A stretch of DNA of 37,825 nt from a virus: IMG/VR virus record IMGVR_UViG_3300037070_002295, positions 1 through 37,825 of that record; one strand, given 5' to 3'. Within the stretch, counting starts at the first letter, position 1; each line of letters opens with the position of its first letter. The notes under the pieces were generated by a model. The model did not search any database. It had not been told where the DNA came from and saw only the letters and a list, made by a program, of their open reading frames with translations. Made by a program: the position numbers and the translations under genes. This document shows positions 1 to 16,273 of the stretch, piece after piece.

Positions 1-702
1 CTTCACGGTGCTGCTGGTGATGCCGGAGAGGGTCTCGGCAACGTCGGCGATCCGCTTGAACTCGGCCGGGCTGACAGGCTCGGTTGCGAGCCTCAGTGCG
101 ATCGTTTCGAGCAGATCCAGCAGACCGGGGACCGACACGGGAACCGTCATGTCCTCGCTGACCGGACCAGTGTTGCCGTGCTCCTCGTCTGCCGGGGTCT
201 CGGTGGCCTTGTCCTCAGGAGTGAACTTCCCACCCTTGAAGCACGAGGCAACCGCCCGACGGATCTTCGGAGCGGTGGCCTTCGGGTCACGGATGACCCG
301 CGAGATACGGGGGTCGTTCGCCTTGCTGACGAGACGGCCCCACGTCTGCGCGTCCTTGCCGTCAGTCTCGACGCCGAGGGAGAGCGACTTGCCGCACAGT
401 TCCCACCGCGACACGGTGGACTTGGACGCGGCCACTCCGTCGCGGTTCGGGAACAGAGCGCCGAACTGGGCGCCTGACTCGTACCGCTGACCCTTCCCGA
501 TCAAGCCAGCCTCACGGACCGCCCACGTTGCCTTGCTCGCCGCGATCACGAACGTGTCGTCCGTGGCCCGGTTCTGCGAGTGCGCCAGCACGGCCTCGTC
601 GATCAGCGCCAGCACCTCAGGAGAGGCAACGGCAACCGCGTTGGTCGTGTCGACAGCAACCGCGTTGGTCGTGTCGACAGTCTCGTTCTTGTTCTCACTC
701 AT
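1..702 (-). CDS. Leftward protein of unknown function, 3' end outside window
   Basis: An open frame starts at the complement of 700-702 and stays open for 234 codons to the window edge, so its C-terminus is missing. The start is supported by a GGAAGGA ribosome site just upstream. The N-terminus carries an exact duplication of the eight residues VDTTNAVA (about residues 9-24). A segment near residues 92-106 (SKSTVSRWELCGKSL) looks like the recognition half of a helix-turn-helix, followed by a charged region and a Glu/Asp/Thr-rich linker. That makes a DNA-binding or regulatory role possible, but I do not recognise the family. It is transcribed away from the structural operon and separated from it by about 500 non-coding bases, as expected for an early or regulatory gene at the other end of the genome map. 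Confidence 0.75.
   Translation of the reverse strand, partial: MSENKNETVDTTNAVAVDTTNAVAVASPEVLALIDEAVLAHSQNRATDDTFVIAASKATWAVREAGLIGKGQRYESGAQFGALFPNRDGVAASKSTVSRWELCGKSLSLGVETDGKDAQTWGRLVSKANDPRISRVIRDPKATAPKIRRAVASCFKGGKFTPEDKATETPADEEHGNTGPVSEDMTVPVSVPGLLDLLETIALRLATEPVSPAEFKRIADVAETLSGITSSTVK
631..678 (-). repeat. 24-base tandem duplication inside the leftward gene
   Basis: Two adjacent 24-base units (631-654 and 655-678) differ at one base and encode VDTTNAVA twice in frame near the N-terminus of the leftward protein. The near-identity at the DNA level points to a recent duplication, probably by slippage. Confidence 0.9.
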
Positions 703-2581: not shown

Positions 2582-2590
2582 GTGAGACGA

Positions 2591-2606
2591 TGTTTCACGT
2601 GAAACA
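2591..2606. promoter_or_regulatory. parS: Perfect bacterial parS (ParB-binding) site
   Basis: TGTTTCACGTGAAACA is a full 16-base palindrome identical to the consensus centromere site bound by chromosomal ParB/Spo0J, which is nearly invariant across bacteria. It lies between the stop of the upstream gene and the ribosome site of the next. If the next gene starts at GTG 2578 instead, parS would be coding (MFHVKH). No parA or parB is in this window, so host ParB or a phage ParB outside the window would have to act on it. Confidence 0.85.
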
Positions 2607-2622
2607 TCGAGAGGAGGAGACC

Positions 2623-2799
2623 ATGAAGCAGATCGAGGTGAAGGTGACCACCGTTCCCTCCCCCCGTGACGGAGCCGGTGGCACCACCCTGCTCATCGAG
2701 TGCTCCGCCTGCGGCCCCGTCTCCGTCGGCCGCGACCCCGGAGCCGGAATCGCCCACCTCCTCAACGTCCACCGGCTCACCCCCAAGGTGCACCAGTGA
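2623..2799 (+). CDS. Small protein with CxxC...HxxxxH zinc-finger-like motif
   Basis: 58 residues from ATG 2623, chosen because of the strong GAGGAGGAG ribosome site. Two earlier in-frame starts exist. GTG 2578 overlaps the upstream stop by four bases, as other genes here do, and would add 15 residues that include the parS-encoded MFHVKH. ATG 2590 lies between. After a short beta-rich start, CSAC and HLLNVH (about residues 29-52) form a C2H2-like pattern. Such proteins usually bind nucleic acid or a partner protein. Family unknown. Confidence 0.7.
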   Translation: MKQIEVKVTTVPSPRDGAGGTTLLIECSACGPVSVGRDPGAGIAHLLNVHRLTPKVHQ

Positions 2800-3227: not shown

Positions 3228-3445
3228 TGGCATCCAGCACCATGTGGTGGAAGGACGGCGACTCCGAACACGTCACCCCCTACAAGGCCAAGACCAAGGC
3301 ACTCGAACTCTGCACCCTCTGCGGGCAGGCCTTCGAGGTCCACGGCAAGGTCGGTGCCACCCTCGTCCACCCCGGCGACACCATCGTGTCCAAGGACGGC
3401 GGCGACATCGAGGTCGTCCGACCAGATCCCTTCGCGCAGTCGTGA
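3227..3445 (+). CDS. 72-residue hypothetical protein with one CxxC
   Basis: ATG 3227 overlaps the previous stop by one base. The protein starts MASSTMWWKDGDSEHV, has a single CTLC motif (about residues 29-32) and ends in a beta-rich region. It overlaps the nuclease gene downstream by four bases. No family recognised. A single CxxC would need a second protein chain to complete a zinc site. Confidence 0.7.
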   Translation: MASSTMWWKDGDSEHVTPYKAKTKALELCTLCGQAFEVHGKVGATLVHPGDTIVSKDGGDIEVVRPDPFAQS

Positions 3446-3804
3446 GCGACCGGCAGGTGTGGTACAACGCCCAAACCGAAGCCGACTTCCAGAAGAAGAT
3501 CACCGACCTCGCCTCCCTGCTCAACCTGAAGTGGCACCACGAGACCGACAGCCGCAAGTCACCCAAGGGCTGGCCCGACCTCGTCATCAGCGGACCCGAA
3601 CACGTGCTGTTCGTCGAACTGAAGTCCGAGAAAGGCCGCGTCACCGCCGAACAGGCCGAATGGCTCGACGCCCTCGACCGCGCCGGAGGCAACGTCTACG
3701 TGTGGCGACCCTCCATGTGGGACGACATCGAGAAGACCCTGCGCCGACTCGCCCAAGCCAAAGGACCCGGCCAGTACACCGGACGCTGGCACATCAACAG
3801 GTAG
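3442..3804 (+). CDS. VRR-NUC family nuclease
   Basis: 120 residues, the size of a stand-alone VRR-NUC domain of the PD-(D/E)xK superfamily. The conserved signature is in order: basic SPKGWPDLVI with the catalytic Asp (about residue 46), FVELK with the Glu-x-Lys pair (about 58-60), then GRVTAEQAEWLDAL and a final GGNVYVWRP strand. Such enzymes cut branched or structured DNA. GTG 3442 overlaps the previous stop, with no separate ribosome site. Its place directly before the small terminase is where many phages carry an HNH nuclease needed for packaging, so a role in processing DNA for packaging is inferred. Confidence 0.85.
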   Translation: MSDRQVWYNAQTEADFQKKITDLASLLNLKWHHETDSRKSPKGWPDLVISGPEHVLFVELKSEKGRVTAEQAEWLDALDRAGGNVYVWRPSMWDDIEKTLRRLAQAKGPGQYTGRWHINR

Positions 3805-3813: not shown

Positions 3814-4362
3814 ATGGCGATCCAGCAGAACTCCACACACCCCGCCGGGGTCAGCGGTGACAGAACCGGTGCACTGACCACCGCCCAGTACCGCAAGGCC
3901 GACGCCGCCCTCGCCCTGCGCCAGAAGCAGGTCTCATGGGCCGAAGTCGCCGAGACCCTCGGCTACCCCACCCCGCGCCACGCCCTCATCGCCGTCGAGA
4001 AAGCACTCCAGCGGGGGCTACAGGCCGACGAGTCCAAAGAGTTCATGCGGATGCTCGCAGGCCAGAAACTCGAAGAACTCCTCTACGCCGTCTGGGACAA
4101 GGCCACCGACCAAGAGCGCGAAGACCAAGCCGTGTTCGTCCGCTCCGCCCGCGAGATCCTCGCCGACCACGCCAAACTGCTCGGCTACCTCTCCCCCGCC
4201 GAAGTCTCCATCTACAACCCGCTGGAGTCCGAGATCGAGCAACTCGTCGGCAAGTTCATCGCCAAGGGCGCACCCGAGATCGAGACCGGCGACATCTTCG
4301 AGATGGAACCCGACGACGACGGGGTTTACCGCGAGAAACTCCCCAGCCCGGACGACTTCTGA
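3814..4362 (+). CDS. terS: Terminase small subunit (probable)
   Basis: 182 residues. A helix-turn-helix is visible around residues 30-68 (RQKQVSWAEVAETLGYPTPRHALIAVEKALQ), followed by helical oligomerisation segments and a conserved-looking KLLGYLSPAEVSIYNP. The acidic C-terminal tail (EMEPDDDGV) would contact the large subunit. Small subunits form rings that recognise the packaging site and regulate the motor. Position supports the call: it follows a nuclease and precedes the large terminase by two small genes. The ATG at 3814 lacks a ribosome site and may be leaderless. Confidence 0.75.
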   Translation: MAIQQNSTHPAGVSGDRTGALTTAQYRKADAALALRQKQVSWAEVAETLGYPTPRHALIAVEKALQRGLQADESKEFMRMLAGQKLEELLYAVWDKATDQEREDQAVFVRSAREILADHAKLLGYLSPAEVSIYNPLESEIEQLVGKFIAKGAPEIETGDIFEMEPDDDGVYREKLPSPDDF

Positions 4363-4822: not shown

Positions 4823-4832
4823 CTAAAGTTGC

Positions 4833-4838
4833 TAGACT
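4833..4838 (+). promoter_or_regulatory. Possible leaderless -10 box before the zinc-ribbon gene
   Basis: TAGACT lies 6 bases before ATG 4845, the same distance as TAGTCT from the small terminase ATG. The ATG has no ribosome site. Both starts share the TAGNCT-6-ATGGC arrangement. Confidence 0.4.
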
Positions 4839-4844
4839 TGCCTC

Positions 4845-4997
4845 ATGGCCAAGGTGCGTTGGTCCCAGCGATGCGCCGGTCCGTGCCGCGTCTGGCTGCG
4901 GGTCGGCCAACAGGCCGTCCGCATCCACGGCGGATGGTGGTGCCCCGAATGCGCCATGAAGCACCGAGCCTCCTGCCGGGTGGCGGAGCGGGTCTAG
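4845..4997 (+). CDS. 50-residue zinc-ribbon-like protein
   Basis: MAKVRWSQRCAGPCRVWLRV... contains CxxxC (Cys10, Cys14) and CPEC (Cys33, Cys36), a standard spacing for a four-Cys zinc ribbon, plus many Arg. It overlaps the start of the large terminase by 49 bases in another frame. The cysteine pattern makes chance unlikely. Nucleic-acid binding is inferred from the ribbon and the basic character. Confidence 0.65.
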   Translation: MAKVRWSQRCAGPCRVWLRVGQQAVRIHGGWWCPECAMKHRASCRVAERV

Positions 4998-6550
4998 ACG
5001 CCGAGACCATCTCCCGGTTCAAGCGCTGGAAGCCTGACGCACAGGCCAAGTTCATCCAGCGACTGCGCGAGGCCGAACAGATCAACTGGGCCCCCTTCTA
5101 CTGCCGCAACCGCGACTGCAACGGCCAGCCGCACGTGTGGCCCGACGACACCCGCGACTGCCCCAACCCCTACGGGCACGAATGGGTGGCCGTCGGCGAC
5201 ACATGGAAGTGCATCGACCACAAGACCAGCGAGGTCAGCGACAAGAACTGCGGCGTCTCCGGCACCCTGCTCGACGAATGGGCCTTCAACCACGCCCGCG
5301 CCGACCAGTGGCCCCCACGCTGGAAAGACGACTGGCTCACCCTGTTCATGCGCGGAGGCCGAGGATCAGGCAAGACCCGCACCGGCTCCGAGATCACCCA
5401 GCAGGTCACCAAGATCGTCCCCCTGATCACCCTGATCGGAGCCACCGGCCCCGACTTCCGAAACATCATGGTCGAAGGCGAGTCCGGCATCCTCGCCACC
5501 TCACCCCCCGGCCAGCGCCCCGAATGGGAGCCGTCCAAGAAACTCCTCACATGGCCCAACGGCTGCAAGGCACAGGGCTACAGCGCCGAGGAACCCGACC
5601 GGCTCCGAGGCCAGAACTCCGGCTTCGTCTGGGCCGACGAACCAGCCCACTGGACGCTGGTACAGGAGTCGTGGGACAACATGCTGTTCGGCCTGCGCAA
5701 GGGCGACTACCCCAAGATCGTCGCCACCTCCACACCCAAGCCCACCGAGTGGGTCAAGGACACCCTGAAGGACGAGTACACCGTCGACCGCCGGGTCTCC
5801 ACCTACGCCAACATGTCCAACCTGTCCCCCGTGTTCCAGCGCATCGTCATCGGCCGGTTCGAAGGATCACGGGCCGGACGGCAGGAACTCCACGGCGAGG
5901 TCCTCGAAGACGTGGAGGGCTCGCTGTGGAAGTGGGGGATGATCAACCACGTCGAAGAACAAGACCCCGACGAGATGGTCAAGATCGCGGTCGGCATCGA
6001 CCCCGCCGGAACCGCCAACAAGAAGTCCGACGAGACCGGCATCATCGTCGCAGGCGTCGGCCACGACAAGAACTTCTACGTGTTCGCCGACTACACCGGC
6101 AAGTACAGCCCCGAAGGCTGGGGCTCGATGTCCAACAAGCAGTACCGGGAGTGGAAGGCCAACGAACTGGTGCCCGAGCGCAACTACGGCGAGGACATGG
6201 TGATCTACGTGCTGGAGAACACCGTCGGCAAGCACAACCGCGACCTGATGCCGCTGATCAAGGCCGTACAGTCCCGCCGAGGCAAGGACATCCGCGCCGA
6301 ACCCATCGTCACCCTCTACGAGAAGCGCCGCGTCTTCCACGTCGGAGAGCGCGGCACCTTCCAGAAACTGGAGGACGAGATGACCACATGGGTCCCCGGC
6401 CACGGCGCATCCCCCAACCGGGTCGATGCACTGGTCCACGTCCTGACCCGGCTCGCCAAGGGAACAGGCATGGGGTCCTCCATCGCCAACCCCCGCGAAC
6501 TGTTCAAGGGCATGCGGATGGGCCACGGCGGGCAACTCCGCCAGACCTGA
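4949..6550 (+). CDS. terL: Terminase large subunit
   Basis: 533 residues from ATG 4949; an in-frame ATG at 4934 is an alternative. This is the ATP-driven motor and nuclease that packages DNA through the portal. Walker A is GGRGSGKT (residues 136-143), and Walker B ends in Asp230-Glu231 (FVWADEP). The RNase H-like nuclease has Asp351 (VGIDPAG) and a late Asp493 (NRVDALVHVL). Before the ATPase sits an unusual Cys/His-rich stretch (about residues 52-110: CxxxxC and further Cys/His) that looks like a zinc-binding insertion. Length otherwise fits the Terminase_6-type family. Confidence 0.95.
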   Translation: MRHEAPSLLPGGGAGLDAETISRFKRWKPDAQAKFIQRLREAEQINWAPFYCRNRDCNGQPHVWPDDTRDCPNPYGHEWVAVGDTWKCIDHKTSEVSDKNCGVSGTLLDEWAFNHARADQWPPRWKDDWLTLFMRGGRGSGKTRTGSEITQQVTKIVPLITLIGATGPDFRNIMVEGESGILATSPPGQRPEWEPSKKLLTWPNGCKAQGYSAEEPDRLRGQNSGFVWADEPAHWTLVQESWDNMLFGLRKGDYPKIVATSTPKPTEWVKDTLKDEYTVDRRVSTYANMSNLSPVFQRIVIGRFEGSRAGRQELHGEVLEDVEGSLWKWGMINHVEEQDPDEMVKIAVGIDPAGTANKKSDETGIIVAGVGHDKNFYVFADYTGKYSPEGWGSMSNKQYREWKANELVPERNYGEDMVIYVLENTVGKHNRDLMPLIKAVQSRRGKDIRAEPIVTLYEKRRVFHVGERGTFQKLEDEMTTWVPGHGASPNRVDALVHVLTRLAKGTGMGSSIANPRELFKGMRMGHGGQLRQT

Positions 6551-6945: not shown

Positions 6946-8760
6946 GTGGCAGGACGCAGGAAGGCACCGGCCCAAGCGCCGACGTTGCCCAGCACCTCAC
7001 TGGTCGCGTCAGCGGTCCGCTACCCCGGCAAGGTCGCAGGCATCTACGTCGGAGCCAAGGAGTGGCAGCGCGAGTGCTACCGCCACTACGGCATCTGCGG
7101 TGAAGCCCGCTACGCCGCCACCTACTTCGGCCACGCACTGGCCCGCTGCTCCCTGTTCGCCACCGACAAGTCCGGCCGAGGAGCCGTCCCGCTGGAGAAC
7201 GGCACCGCGGTCGACGTGCTCGACGCCCTGTTCAACGGCTCCGAAGGGCAGGAGGCGATGCTCGACGCCATCGGCCAGCACCTCACCATCGCCGGGGAGT
7301 GCTACCTGATCGGCCGCGAGGTCGACATCCGCGACGAGGTCACCAAGCAGGTCGTCGACACCGACGAGCAGTGGGAGATCCTCTCGGTGCTGGAGGTCAA
7401 GAAGGCCGGGGAGCAGTGGTCGATCACCTCACGGGAGGAGGGTGAGCCCGACATCATCCTGCCCGACGACGCCGTCGTCATCCGCATCTGGCGACCCAAC
7501 CCGATGCGCCGCCTCGAAGCCGACAGCCCCTTCCGCTCACTGCTCCCGGTGCTGCGCGAGATCGAGTGGCTCACCCTGCGTATCTTCGCCGAGTGCCGCT
7601 CCCGCCTCACCGGTGCCGGACTCGGATTCATCTCCGAGGACGTGACCTTCCCCGCCCCACCCTCAGAGATCAACGGCAAGAAGGTCGCGCCCGCCAACGA
7701 GGCCGAGGGGATGCTGTGGACCCTCGCCGAGGCCATGATGGGTGCCATCGAGGACCCCTCCTCCCCGGAGTCGCTGATGCCGGTGCTCGCCACCGTCCCC
7801 TCCGAGGTGCTCGCCAACGGCAAGGTCATGGAACTGGTCAAGTTCTGGACCGAACTCGACGCCGAGACCCGGCCGATGCGCGAAGCGGCGATCCACCGGT
7901 TCGCCCTCGGTATGGACCTACCCCCCGAGAAGATCCTCGGCGTCTCCTCCAACCCCGGCACCGGCGGCGGCTCCACCAACGGCGTCTCCCACTGGGGTGC
8001 GTGGCAGATCGACGAGGAGACCATCCGGCTCCACATCGAGCCGATGCTCGGGCTGGTCTGCAACTCACTGATCATCGGGTTCCTCCGCCCCCTGACCGAA
8101 GGCATGGAGGGCATCGGCTACGACACCACCAACCTGCGGCTACGACCCGACCGGTCCAAGGAGGCCGTCGAGTTGTACAAGTTGGGTGTCGTCAAAGCCG
8201 AGGTGGTGCTCCGCGAGAACGGCTTCGACCCCGAGAACGACCTCATGGACGACGAAGGCCGCAGGCTGTGGCTGACCATCAAGGTCGCCTCCGGCTCCGC
8301 CACACCCGAACAGGTCCAGCAGGCCCTCGAAGCACTCGGCGTCGACCTCGGCCCGCTACTGCTCCCCTCGGCGACACCACGCGAGACCCGCCCCGACCCC
8401 TCCGGTGAGGACCACCCCACCCGAGACCTGCCCGAAGCCGCGGCCCTACTGCTCGCTGTGTGCGAGCCGCTGGTCCTGACCGCCCTGAACCGGGCGGGCA
8501 ACAAACTGCGCCAGAAGGGCAAGGGGGGTGTCCAGCCCACGAACGTCAAGGCGTACGAGGTGCACACCGTCGTCGCCGCCAACGGGCTCACCGAGATGTG
8601 TCTCGACGACGCCTTCCCACACGCCGCGATGTGCCTCAACGGTGTCGCCCCGGCCGACAAGGTCGTGCCCCGCCTCGACGCCTACGTCCGCACCCTGCTC
8701 GCCCAACAGCGCCCCCACACCCGGGCCCTGCTCTCCAAGGCACTGGAGGGCATCGCGTGA
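6946..8760 (+). CDS. Portal protein
   Basis: 604 residues, a usual portal length. GTG 6946 is preceded by GGGGAGGA. The portal is the dodecameric ring at one capsid vertex through which DNA enters and leaves. Family features: an N-terminal arm, a central region with paired helices (FRSLLPVLREIEWLTLRIFAECRSR) and the characteristic segment around residues 310-365 (ALGMDLPPEKILG...GVSHWGAWQIDEETIRLHIEP) common in actinophage portals. The last 110 residues form a less conserved tail. Position between terminase and MuF/protease agrees. It overlaps the next gene by four bases. Confidence 0.9.
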   Translation: MAGRRKAPAQAPTLPSTSLVASAVRYPGKVAGIYVGAKEWQRECYRHYGICGEARYAATYFGHALARCSLFATDKSGRGAVPLENGTAVDVLDALFNGSEGQEAMLDAIGQHLTIAGECYLIGREVDIRDEVTKQVVDTDEQWEILSVLEVKKAGEQWSITSREEGEPDIILPDDAVVIRIWRPNPMRRLEADSPFRSLLPVLREIEWLTLRIFAECRSRLTGAGLGFISEDVTFPAPPSEINGKKVAPANEAEGMLWTLAEAMMGAIEDPSSPESLMPVLATVPSEVLANGKVMELVKFWTELDAETRPMREAAIHRFALGMDLPPEKILGVSSNPGTGGGSTNGVSHWGAWQIDEETIRLHIEPMLGLVCNSLIIGFLRPLTEGMEGIGYDTTNLRLRPDRSKEAVELYKLGVVKAEVVLRENGFDPENDLMDDEGRRLWLTIKVASGSATPEQVQQALEALGVDLGPLLLPSATPRETRPDPSGEDHPTRDLPEAAALLLAVCEPLVLTALNRAGNKLRQKGKGGVQPTNVKAYEVHTVVAANGLTEMCLDDAFPHAAMCLNGVAPADKVVPRLDAYVRTLLAQQRPHTRALLSKALEGIA

Positions 8761-14599: not shown

Positions 14600-16273
14600 A
14601 TGGCCAAGAACGAGAAGTTCGCAGGCATCGAGTTCGACGCTCTCACCAAGCAGCGCGACGAGAAGCACGCCGCCTACAGCGAGGCGATCAAGAACGAGTC
14701 GCCCACCCCCGAGGAAGTTGCCGCCGCGGTAGCCCTCGGAGACGAGGTCGACGCGATGGACGCCGAACTCGCCGAGCGCGAGACCGAGCGGGCCGAGGCC
14801 GCAGCCAAGTTCGCGGAGGCCAAGGAGCGCAAGTTCGGGGCCGACAAGGTCGAGGCAGCCGAGACCGAGGTCGAGGACCCGCCGGTCGCCGAGGACGAGG
14901 ACGACGACGAGGCCGAAGGTCAGGCCGAGGTCGCCGACGAGGAGCCCGTCGAGGTTTCCGCCAAGGCCGAGGCCAAGACCAAGACGGTCAAGACCCTCGC
15001 CGCCCGCACCACCCGTCCGGCCGTACCCGCCGAGCAGAACACCAAGGCCACCGTCTCCATCGTGGCCGCAGCCGACGCCGGGTTCGCAGCCGGAGCCGAG
15101 ATGCAGTTCAGCGACCTCGCCAAGGGTGCGATCAACCGCCTGCGCGGGATGCCCGAGCCCAACGGTGACGGCAACACCACCGCCGACTCACTGCGCAAGT
15201 TCTCCGTGGCCGCTCTCGCCATCCCGTTCTCCTCGGACCTCGTCATCGACGAGCGCACCTCGGAGTCCGACACCTTCGACATCATCGAGCGGGCCTCCAA
15301 CGAGTTCAACATCAAGGGCCACGACGGCGAGGAGTTCGAGTCCCTCGTCGCCGCCAACGGCTGGTGTGCACCGTCCGAGACCCTCTACGACCTCGCGTCC
15401 GACGAGTCCCTCGACGGCATCCTGAGCCTCCCCGAGGTGCAGGTGAAGCGAGGCGGCATCCGCTACACCGTCGGCCCCCAGTTCGTCGACTTCTACGCCA
15501 ACGCCGGGTTCATCCAGACGGAGGCGCAGGCCATCAGCGGCACCACCAAGCCGTGCTACGAGGTGTCCTGCCCGTCGTTCACCGACGTGCGGCTCGACGC
15601 GGTGGGTGTCTGCATCAAGGTGCCGATCCTGCTCAACGCCGCCTACCCGGAGATGACCAACCGGTTCACCTCCGGCACGCTGATCGCCCACCAGCACATG
15701 GTGAACGCGTCCGTGATCGGCCGGATGGTCACCCTCGCGGGTGCCGCCCGGGTGTTCGCTGACAAGGGCTCCGGCTTCGCCGACGCGCTGGAGTACGCCA
15801 GCCTCGTCGCCGACCAGCGCCGTCAGTCCCAGCGGCTCGCGTTCAACCGGACCATCGAGTGGGTCGTGCCGTTCTGGGTCAAGAACGTCTACCTCAACGA
15901 CATGGGTCGCCGCACCGGTCAGGACTCGACGAGCCCGATCACCGAGGCCGCGCTCAACGCGCACTTCTCCAGTCGCAACATCAACGTGTCCTACGTCTAC
16001 GACTGGCAGGTGCTCGACGAGACCGTCGAGTTGTACCCGACCACCTACCAAGCGCTCGCCTACCCGGCTGGCACCTTCGTCAAGGGCGTGTCCGACGTGA
16101 TCAACCTGTCGGCCGTCTACGACGCGGCGTCACTGGCGGGCAACATGTACACCGGCCTGTTCATGGAGCAGGGTCTTCTGGTCGCCAAGAAGCAGTACGG
16201 GGCCGACCTGATGACGATGCCCATCTGCGAGGCCGGACGCACCGGTACCGCCAACCTCGCCACCTGCGTCTGA
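14600..16273 (+). CDS. Major capsid protein with fused N-terminal scaffold
   Basis: 557 residues. Residues 1-150 are charged and helical, then very acidic (EDEDDDEAEG) and then Lys/Ala-rich: a scaffolding (delta-like) domain expected to be removed by the protease encoded at 8757. The shell domain follows, with HK97-type actinophage features: LPEVQVKRGGIRYTVGPQF (about 279-297), a paired-Cys strand region (KPCYEVSCPSFTDVRLDAVGVCIKVPILLN) and a C-terminal beta region. Many Cys in the shell domain might form cross-links, but that is inference. Start supported by GAGGAG. It is the first gene of the rightward late operon. Confidence 0.88.
   Translation: MAKNEKFAGIEFDALTKQRDEKHAAYSEAIKNESPTPEEVAAAVALGDEVDAMDAELAERETERAEAAAKFAEAKERKFGADKVEAAETEVEDPPVAEDEDDDEAEGQAEVADEEPVEVSAKAEAKTKTVKTLAARTTRPAVPAEQNTKATVSIVAAADAGFAAGAEMQFSDLAKGAINRLRGMPEPNGDGNTTADSLRKFSVAALAIPFSSDLVIDERTSESDTFDIIERASNEFNIKGHDGEEFESLVAANGWCAPSETLYDLASDESLDGILSLPEVQVKRGGIRYTVGPQFVDFYANAGFIQTEAQAISGTTKPCYEVSCPSFTDVRLDAVGVCIKVPILLNAAYPEMTNRFTSGTLIAHQHMVNASVIGRMVTLAGAARVFADKGSGFADALEYASLVADQRRQSQRLAFNRTIEWVVPFWVKNVYLNDMGRRTGQDSTSPITEAALNAHFSSRNINVSYVYDWQVLDETVELYPTTYQALAYPAGTFVKGVSDVINLSAVYDAASLAGNMYTGLFMEQGLLVAKKQYGADLMTMPICEAGRTGTANLATCV

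Follow-up and report, generated by a model that had tools for sequence, protein, structure and literature searches.

A parS site of the host type, probably an orphan, lies in the left part of a phage genome, and our preferred reading, with a probability of roughly two in three, is that host ParB clamps load at this site and so hold the phage DNA at the host nucleoid. The window, i.e. the whole stretch of DNA that was analysed, comprises 37,825 nucleotides of the IMG/VR record IMGVR_UViG_3300037070_002295. The analysis yielded the exact site, an enrichment of the same sequence in phages, its occurrence in phages that lack a ParB of their own, selection at the DNA level in relatives, and variants that match the host.

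A scan of the whole window found the 16-mer TGTTTCACGTGAAACA at 2591–2606 with 0 mismatches to the consensus, and this was the sole match at ≤3 mismatches. Dinucleotide shuffles gave a mean of 0.07 matches per window at ≤3 mismatches to TGTTTCACGTGAAACA. The expected number of exact copies per window was 9e-7 in a GC-composition model and ~9e-6 in a uniform model. An earlier note on this DNA had reported the exact 16-base consensus and a chance figure of one in 100,000; the site was confirmed, and the figure is right and slightly conservative. The palindrome is longer than claimed there: a perfect palindrome of 22 bp, CGATGTTTCACGTGAAACATCG, encloses the 16-mer and is the longest in the window (the second-longest has 16 bp). 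Its central 20 bp, GATGTTTCACGTGAAACATC (2589–2608), are letter-identical to the duplex that was annealed for X-ray crystallography of ParB-parS (PMC7383237). By its 16-bp palindrome TGTTTCACGTGAAACA, the site is of the chromosomal parS type, with putative ParB binding. A search of the window for Noc-type sites found none. Read as RNA, the palindrome gives a 9-bp stem with an ACGU loop and no T run after it; a role as an intrinsic terminator or RNA hairpin was ruled out because the T tail is absent and the fold is unremarkable (z −1.3).

Table 1. Coordinates of the parS site and of the features around it in the window
Feature	Position	Strand	Remark
Upstream ORF, 131 aa	2186..2581	+	no PHROG or Pfam match; none among phages
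22-bp perfect palindrome CGATGTTTCACGTGAAACATCG	2588..2609	.	longest in window
Crystallography-duplex match GATGTTTCACGTGAAACATC	2589..2608	.	identity to PMC7383237 20-mer
parS 16-mer TGTTTCACGTGAAACA	2591..2606	.	exact consensus
Shine-Dalgarno-like AGGAGG	2612..2617	+	read from sequence
Small downstream ORF (MKQIEVKVTT...)	2623..2799	+	start choice inferred
VRR-NUC nuclease	3442..3804	+	PF08774, 9e-10
TerS-like gene by position	3814..4362	+	phrog_645 (named RNase E)
Terminase large subunit (TerL)	4829..6550	+	true start probably near 5003
Portal protein	6946..8760	+	phrog_776
Major capsid protein	14600..16273	+	phrog_777

The palindrome sits within the 41 bases that separate the stop of the ORF at 2186–2581 from the ATG at 2623. 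AGGAGG begins 2 bases past the palindrome, and 5 nt separate it from this ATG. With an alternative GTG start at 2578 for the same ORF, the site would be read in frame as ..TMFHVKHR... The genes 3' of the site follow in the order VRR-NUC, TerS-like, TerL, portal, capsid and tail genes. Homologues of the 3814–4362 protein occupy, in relatives, the positions of annotated HTH/TerS genes. To call this region a packaging operon was roughly correct: the site precedes the TerS-like gene (3814–4362) and TerL (to 6550), and it lies among small unknown ORFs. At the left end of the window (1–702, minus strand), a 234-aa protein without a PHROG or Pfam match has an HTH-like stretch, SKSTVSRWELCGKSL, recognised by eye.

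Neither a ParB domain (PF02195, E ≤10) nor a ParA-type ATPase (PF13614, E ≤1) was found in the window, so the claim that no ParA or ParB is encoded holds for this left part of the genome. Both features of a phage-encoded ParABS, a ParB with the site and a ParA-type ATPase, are thus absent from the part covered, and the site stands without a cognate ParB in a record that is a partial genome. The nearest isolated relatives were Arthrobacter phages (Wilde, BruhMoment, Odyssey395 and others), Curtobacterium phages Sunfish and Kithara, and Microbacterium phages of Gillianvirus and Squashvirus, with a TerL identity of 40–46%. As their genomes are about 62–70 kb long, the window is probably the left 55–60% of a 60–70 kb actinophage-type genome. 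TerL relatives within bacterial genomes, most of them alphaproteobacterial and matching at about 40%, gave no host assignment. In relatives from Arthrobacter and Curtobacterium (L245, L259–L264), TerL is preceded by genes annotated as ParB-like nuclease-domain or ParB-N-like; a counterpart was undetected in the window by PF02195.

Among 50,697 phage records searched with blastn, the 30-mer matched 368 (251 at ≥99% identity) and the reversed 30-mer gave five imperfect matches, while in IMG/VR at least 120 stretches contained the 16-mer versus one for the reversed control, and likewise at least 120 were found with the 20-mer alone as the query; these counts are not independent events, as they take in records that are related to each other and some Listeria records that are unannotated and could be bacterial. 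The parS representatives examined were siphoviruses of Microbacterium, Gordonia, Arthrobacter and Rhodococcus, Salasmaviridae and Herelleviridae of Firmicutes, and one inovirus. Microviruses were present among the blastn match lists.

All 20 whole parS phage records contained one to seven sites at ≤2 mismatches, and the reversed control gave 0 in all of them. A ParB_N match was absent in 16 of the 20, including an 18-kb phi29-like phage; it was present in two Quhwahvirus genomes and Appa, and Odyssey395 had a weak match. Only three of 50 IMG/VR parS contigs, which may be fragments, were over the ParB_N cut-off. Bajarodino virus 6 (PQ006135.1), a gut inovirus of 5,910 bases, carries six exact parS copies and lacks ParB. 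Its sister bajarodino viruses had five to six sites each in the match list. Two parS sites were found in Gordonia Woes, a member of cluster CS, which is without temperate features (PMC5559632). In Gordonia Woes and PatrickStar (L239 2719, L250 2156), parS forms the middle of longer palindromes, also perfect, close to the right end of the genome; one example is GCAGTGTTTCACGTGAAACACTGC, whose flanks are further paired. Since many unrelated phages carry parS without its reader protein, phages probably borrow the chromosome-segregation protein of the host.

When the whole genomes of nine superfamily relatives were searched at ≤3 mismatches, six carried sites and the reversed control gave 0 in every one; two of the six (OneinaGillian and Odyssey395) had been picked as parS matches, and among the remaining seven, chosen purely by TerL, four carried sites. 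Curtobacterium Sunfish and Kithara and Microbacterium Hyperion had none in the same search. Hence, the site is dispensable. Where present, it lies in the portal gene, the protease gene or the right arm, and in no case at the position seen in the window. The nearest relative, contig L278 (53% TerL identity), had 0 sites in about 8 kb upstream of TerL. In 80 distant contig relatives (949 kb, mostly fragments), there was one exact and one 2-mismatch site (control: 0). No close relative spans the locus: a TerL query returned just fragments of the same virus, with the site region outside them. The refuting condition set in the earlier note gave a mixed result: L278 has no site upstream of TerL, yet six of the nine isolated relatives carry sites elsewhere. 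Gain and loss among relatives fit a loader for a sliding clamp and not a fixed packaging signal. With the sites of relatives scattered over capsid-protease and portal genes and the right arm, or absent, and those of unrelated phages elsewhere, a packaging signal was rejected. That part of the original interpretation is unsupported, and its other part, the recruitment of host ParB, has good indirect support: the enrichment against the reversed control, the orphan sites, the in-frame copies in rare codons, the host-matched variant and the phi29/Spo0J case all point to it.

The Arthrobacter relatives carry the site within the gene for the capsid maturation protease, where it is invariably read as GTT TCA CGT GAA ACA/G (VSRET). 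These codons usually have GAT before them, giving DVSRET (GAT GTT TCA CGT GAA ACR). The in-frame sites are often in segments missing from other members (indel positions). BruhMoment has three copies in the protease gene, Ranunculus two (plus one within the portal gene), and Odyssey395 and MellowYellow one each. Given the peptide VSRET, the probability of the codons in the GC-rich phages was 1.8e-6 for BruhMoment, 1.4e-5 for Ranunculus, 1.1e-5 for MellowYellow, 1.2e-7 for OneinaGillian and 3e-7 for Emotion; the value of 0.014 for the AT-rich B103 was uninformative. The same VSRET reading was found in unrelated genes, namely endolysin (B103, Chedec 11), a Quhwahvirus HTH gene and a small ORF of OneinaGillian. 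Many further phage copies of parS are intergenic, like that of the window. The codon usage indicates that, in relatives, selection acts on the in-frame sites at the level of DNA.

The parS2/3 sequence of P. aeruginosa is TGTTCCACGTGGAACA (PMC4368675). Its core as a query matched 147 phage records, including 20 of Pseudomonas and 6 of Stenotrophomonas, whereas the ten names found most often with the standard core, each with at least 8 records, did not include Pseudomonas. The comparison is one of two queries and is uncorrected for the number of phages per host in the collection. Across phages, the shift of matches to Pseudomonas phages with the Pseudomonas variant agrees with the prediction of host matching. 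The TGTTCCACGTGGAACA core also recovered phi29 and PZA, within the endolysin gene, and 27 mycobacteriophage records, of which those listed bear mismatches. In ~70 kb mycobacteriophages (H257, H270, H276–H284), small hypothetical genes flank a near-parS variant close to the right end. The exact TGTTCCACGTGGAACA (TTCC variant) was also found in Klebsiella jumbo phages of the K64-1 type (H291–H293). Enterobacteria are said to be without chromosomal ParABS, and the host model leaves these jumbo phages as an unexplained exception.

After infection, host ParB would load at the palindrome as a CTP-dependent clamp and slide onto the adjoining phage DNA. Host ParA and SMC would then treat the phage genome as an origin-like region. 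The genome would be positioned and held with the host nucleoid during a slow or stalled infection (carrier state, starvation), a retention comparable to the use of Spo0J by phi29 for spore entry. For this host, we infer the binding of ParB, the spreading of the clamp, the engagement of ParA and SMC and the benefit. Points against this reading are the relatives without a site, the Klebsiella exception and the single copy in about 38 kb, which is the smallest number possible. ParB is known to bind parS, close with CTP and slide (PMC12704722), and it recruits SMC and is pulled by ParA (reviewed in PMC7333895). A plasmid in B. subtilis was stabilised by one parS in dependence on Soj and Spo0J (PMC2346475), entrapment of phi29 DNA in spores depends on Spo0J according to Meijer et al. 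2005, as cited in PMC9437464, and the parS mimics of SGI1 exploit the ParB of IncC plasmids (PMC10954446). On the basis of these properties and precedents, recruitment of host ParB with partition-like retention is favoured.

Other uses of host ParB were weighed against this. Replicating phage genomes could multiply parS, titrate host ParB and disrupt host segregation, and so free or redirect host resources; segregation of the phage itself would be beside the point. Sites in lytic phages such as Gordonia Woes (see above) and genomes with six to seven sites would suit a decoy of this kind. However, numerous phages carry just one site, which would soak up little of a protein that slides outward from where it loads, and we consider a decoy unlikely. 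Host ParB could also load SMC-ScpAB on phage DNA, which would organise replicating genomes or shield them from topology-sensing defence. In many bacteria, ParB does load SMC at parS (PMC7333895), and loading should be independent of where the site lies, in keeping with its mobility among relatives; the sites in short linear genomes and in the 5.9-kb inovirus fit this less well, and we rate it as quite unlikely. Very unlikely, in our view, is a local regulation in which ParB just upstream of the ribosome-binding site of the ORF at 2623 shuts off the left operon or sets the time of its expression. The Shine-Dalgarno sequence 2 bases past the site and the repression by P. aeruginosa ParB of genes adjoining the intergenic parS3/4 are in line with it, but the sites of relatives lie within structural genes, and no sigma-70-like promoter was found near the site in a scan that did not cover actinobacterial promoters.

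The two remaining explanations do without host ParB. The site could be read by a ParB or regulator that the phage itself encodes in the missing right arm: the window is partial, the Quhwahvirus and Appa parS phages encode ParB_N proteins, and ParB-like nuclease-domain genes lie near TerL in the Arthrobacter relatives. Yet the same 16-mer is found in many unrelated phages without any ParB_N, and ParB_N is also missing from OneinaGillian, whose site is the most similar among the relatives, which makes such a reader highly improbable. A chance palindrome would agree with the lack of a site in the nearest relative, L278; against an expectation of about 1e-6 to 1e-5 per window, the extended palindrome and the strong global enrichment, its probability is close to negligible.

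Retention through host ParB therefore remains our preferred reading for the window. Whether phages of non-sporulating bacteria have evolved the borrowing of host segregation through orphan parS sites many times over and use it generally, some of them with DVSRET inserted in virion genes, is an evenly balanced question. If this is true, host ParB/SMC would be a routine player in lytic infection. The exploitation of host ParB by phi29 in sporulating Bacillus is already known, whereas the presence of host-type parS in ParB-less phages that infect many different non-sporulating bacteria suggests that reliance on the segregation machinery of the host is common. The literature search, with subscription literature covered incompletely, found no paper that ties the sequence to phage carriage and no description of the wider pattern, namely parS in many unrelated phages and in those of non-sporulating hosts, in frame within virion genes and as a host-matched variant. 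Silent parS mutations in phages would be a simple genetic handle on how infecting genomes are positioned and kept, and this may matter for the persistence of lytic phages in slow-growing hosts.

Actinobacteriophages with parABS encode their own ParA and ParB and a phage-specific parS. The likeness to the window would be the partition of a phage genome in actinobacteria (Dedrick 2016, as far as it is cited in PMC12704722); the difference is that, in the window, a host-type parS alone was seen. SGI1 is likewise a mobile element whose parS mimics bind a foreign ParB and which gains stability in this way (PMC10954446), with the corresponding binding in the window being putative. However, SGI1 parasitises a plasmid system and not the host chromosome, and it has two sites and the Sci protein (PMC10954446). 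Phi29, in the account of Spo0J cited in PMC9437464, is a phage that relies on the chromosome-segregation ParB of its host. In phi29-family genomes, we found parS or near-parS in gene 15 (endolysin). According to the same account, phi29 gains by spore entrapment, whereas the relatives of the window infect non-sporulating Micrococcales. The single site of the window is probably a further case of the phi29-type arrangement.
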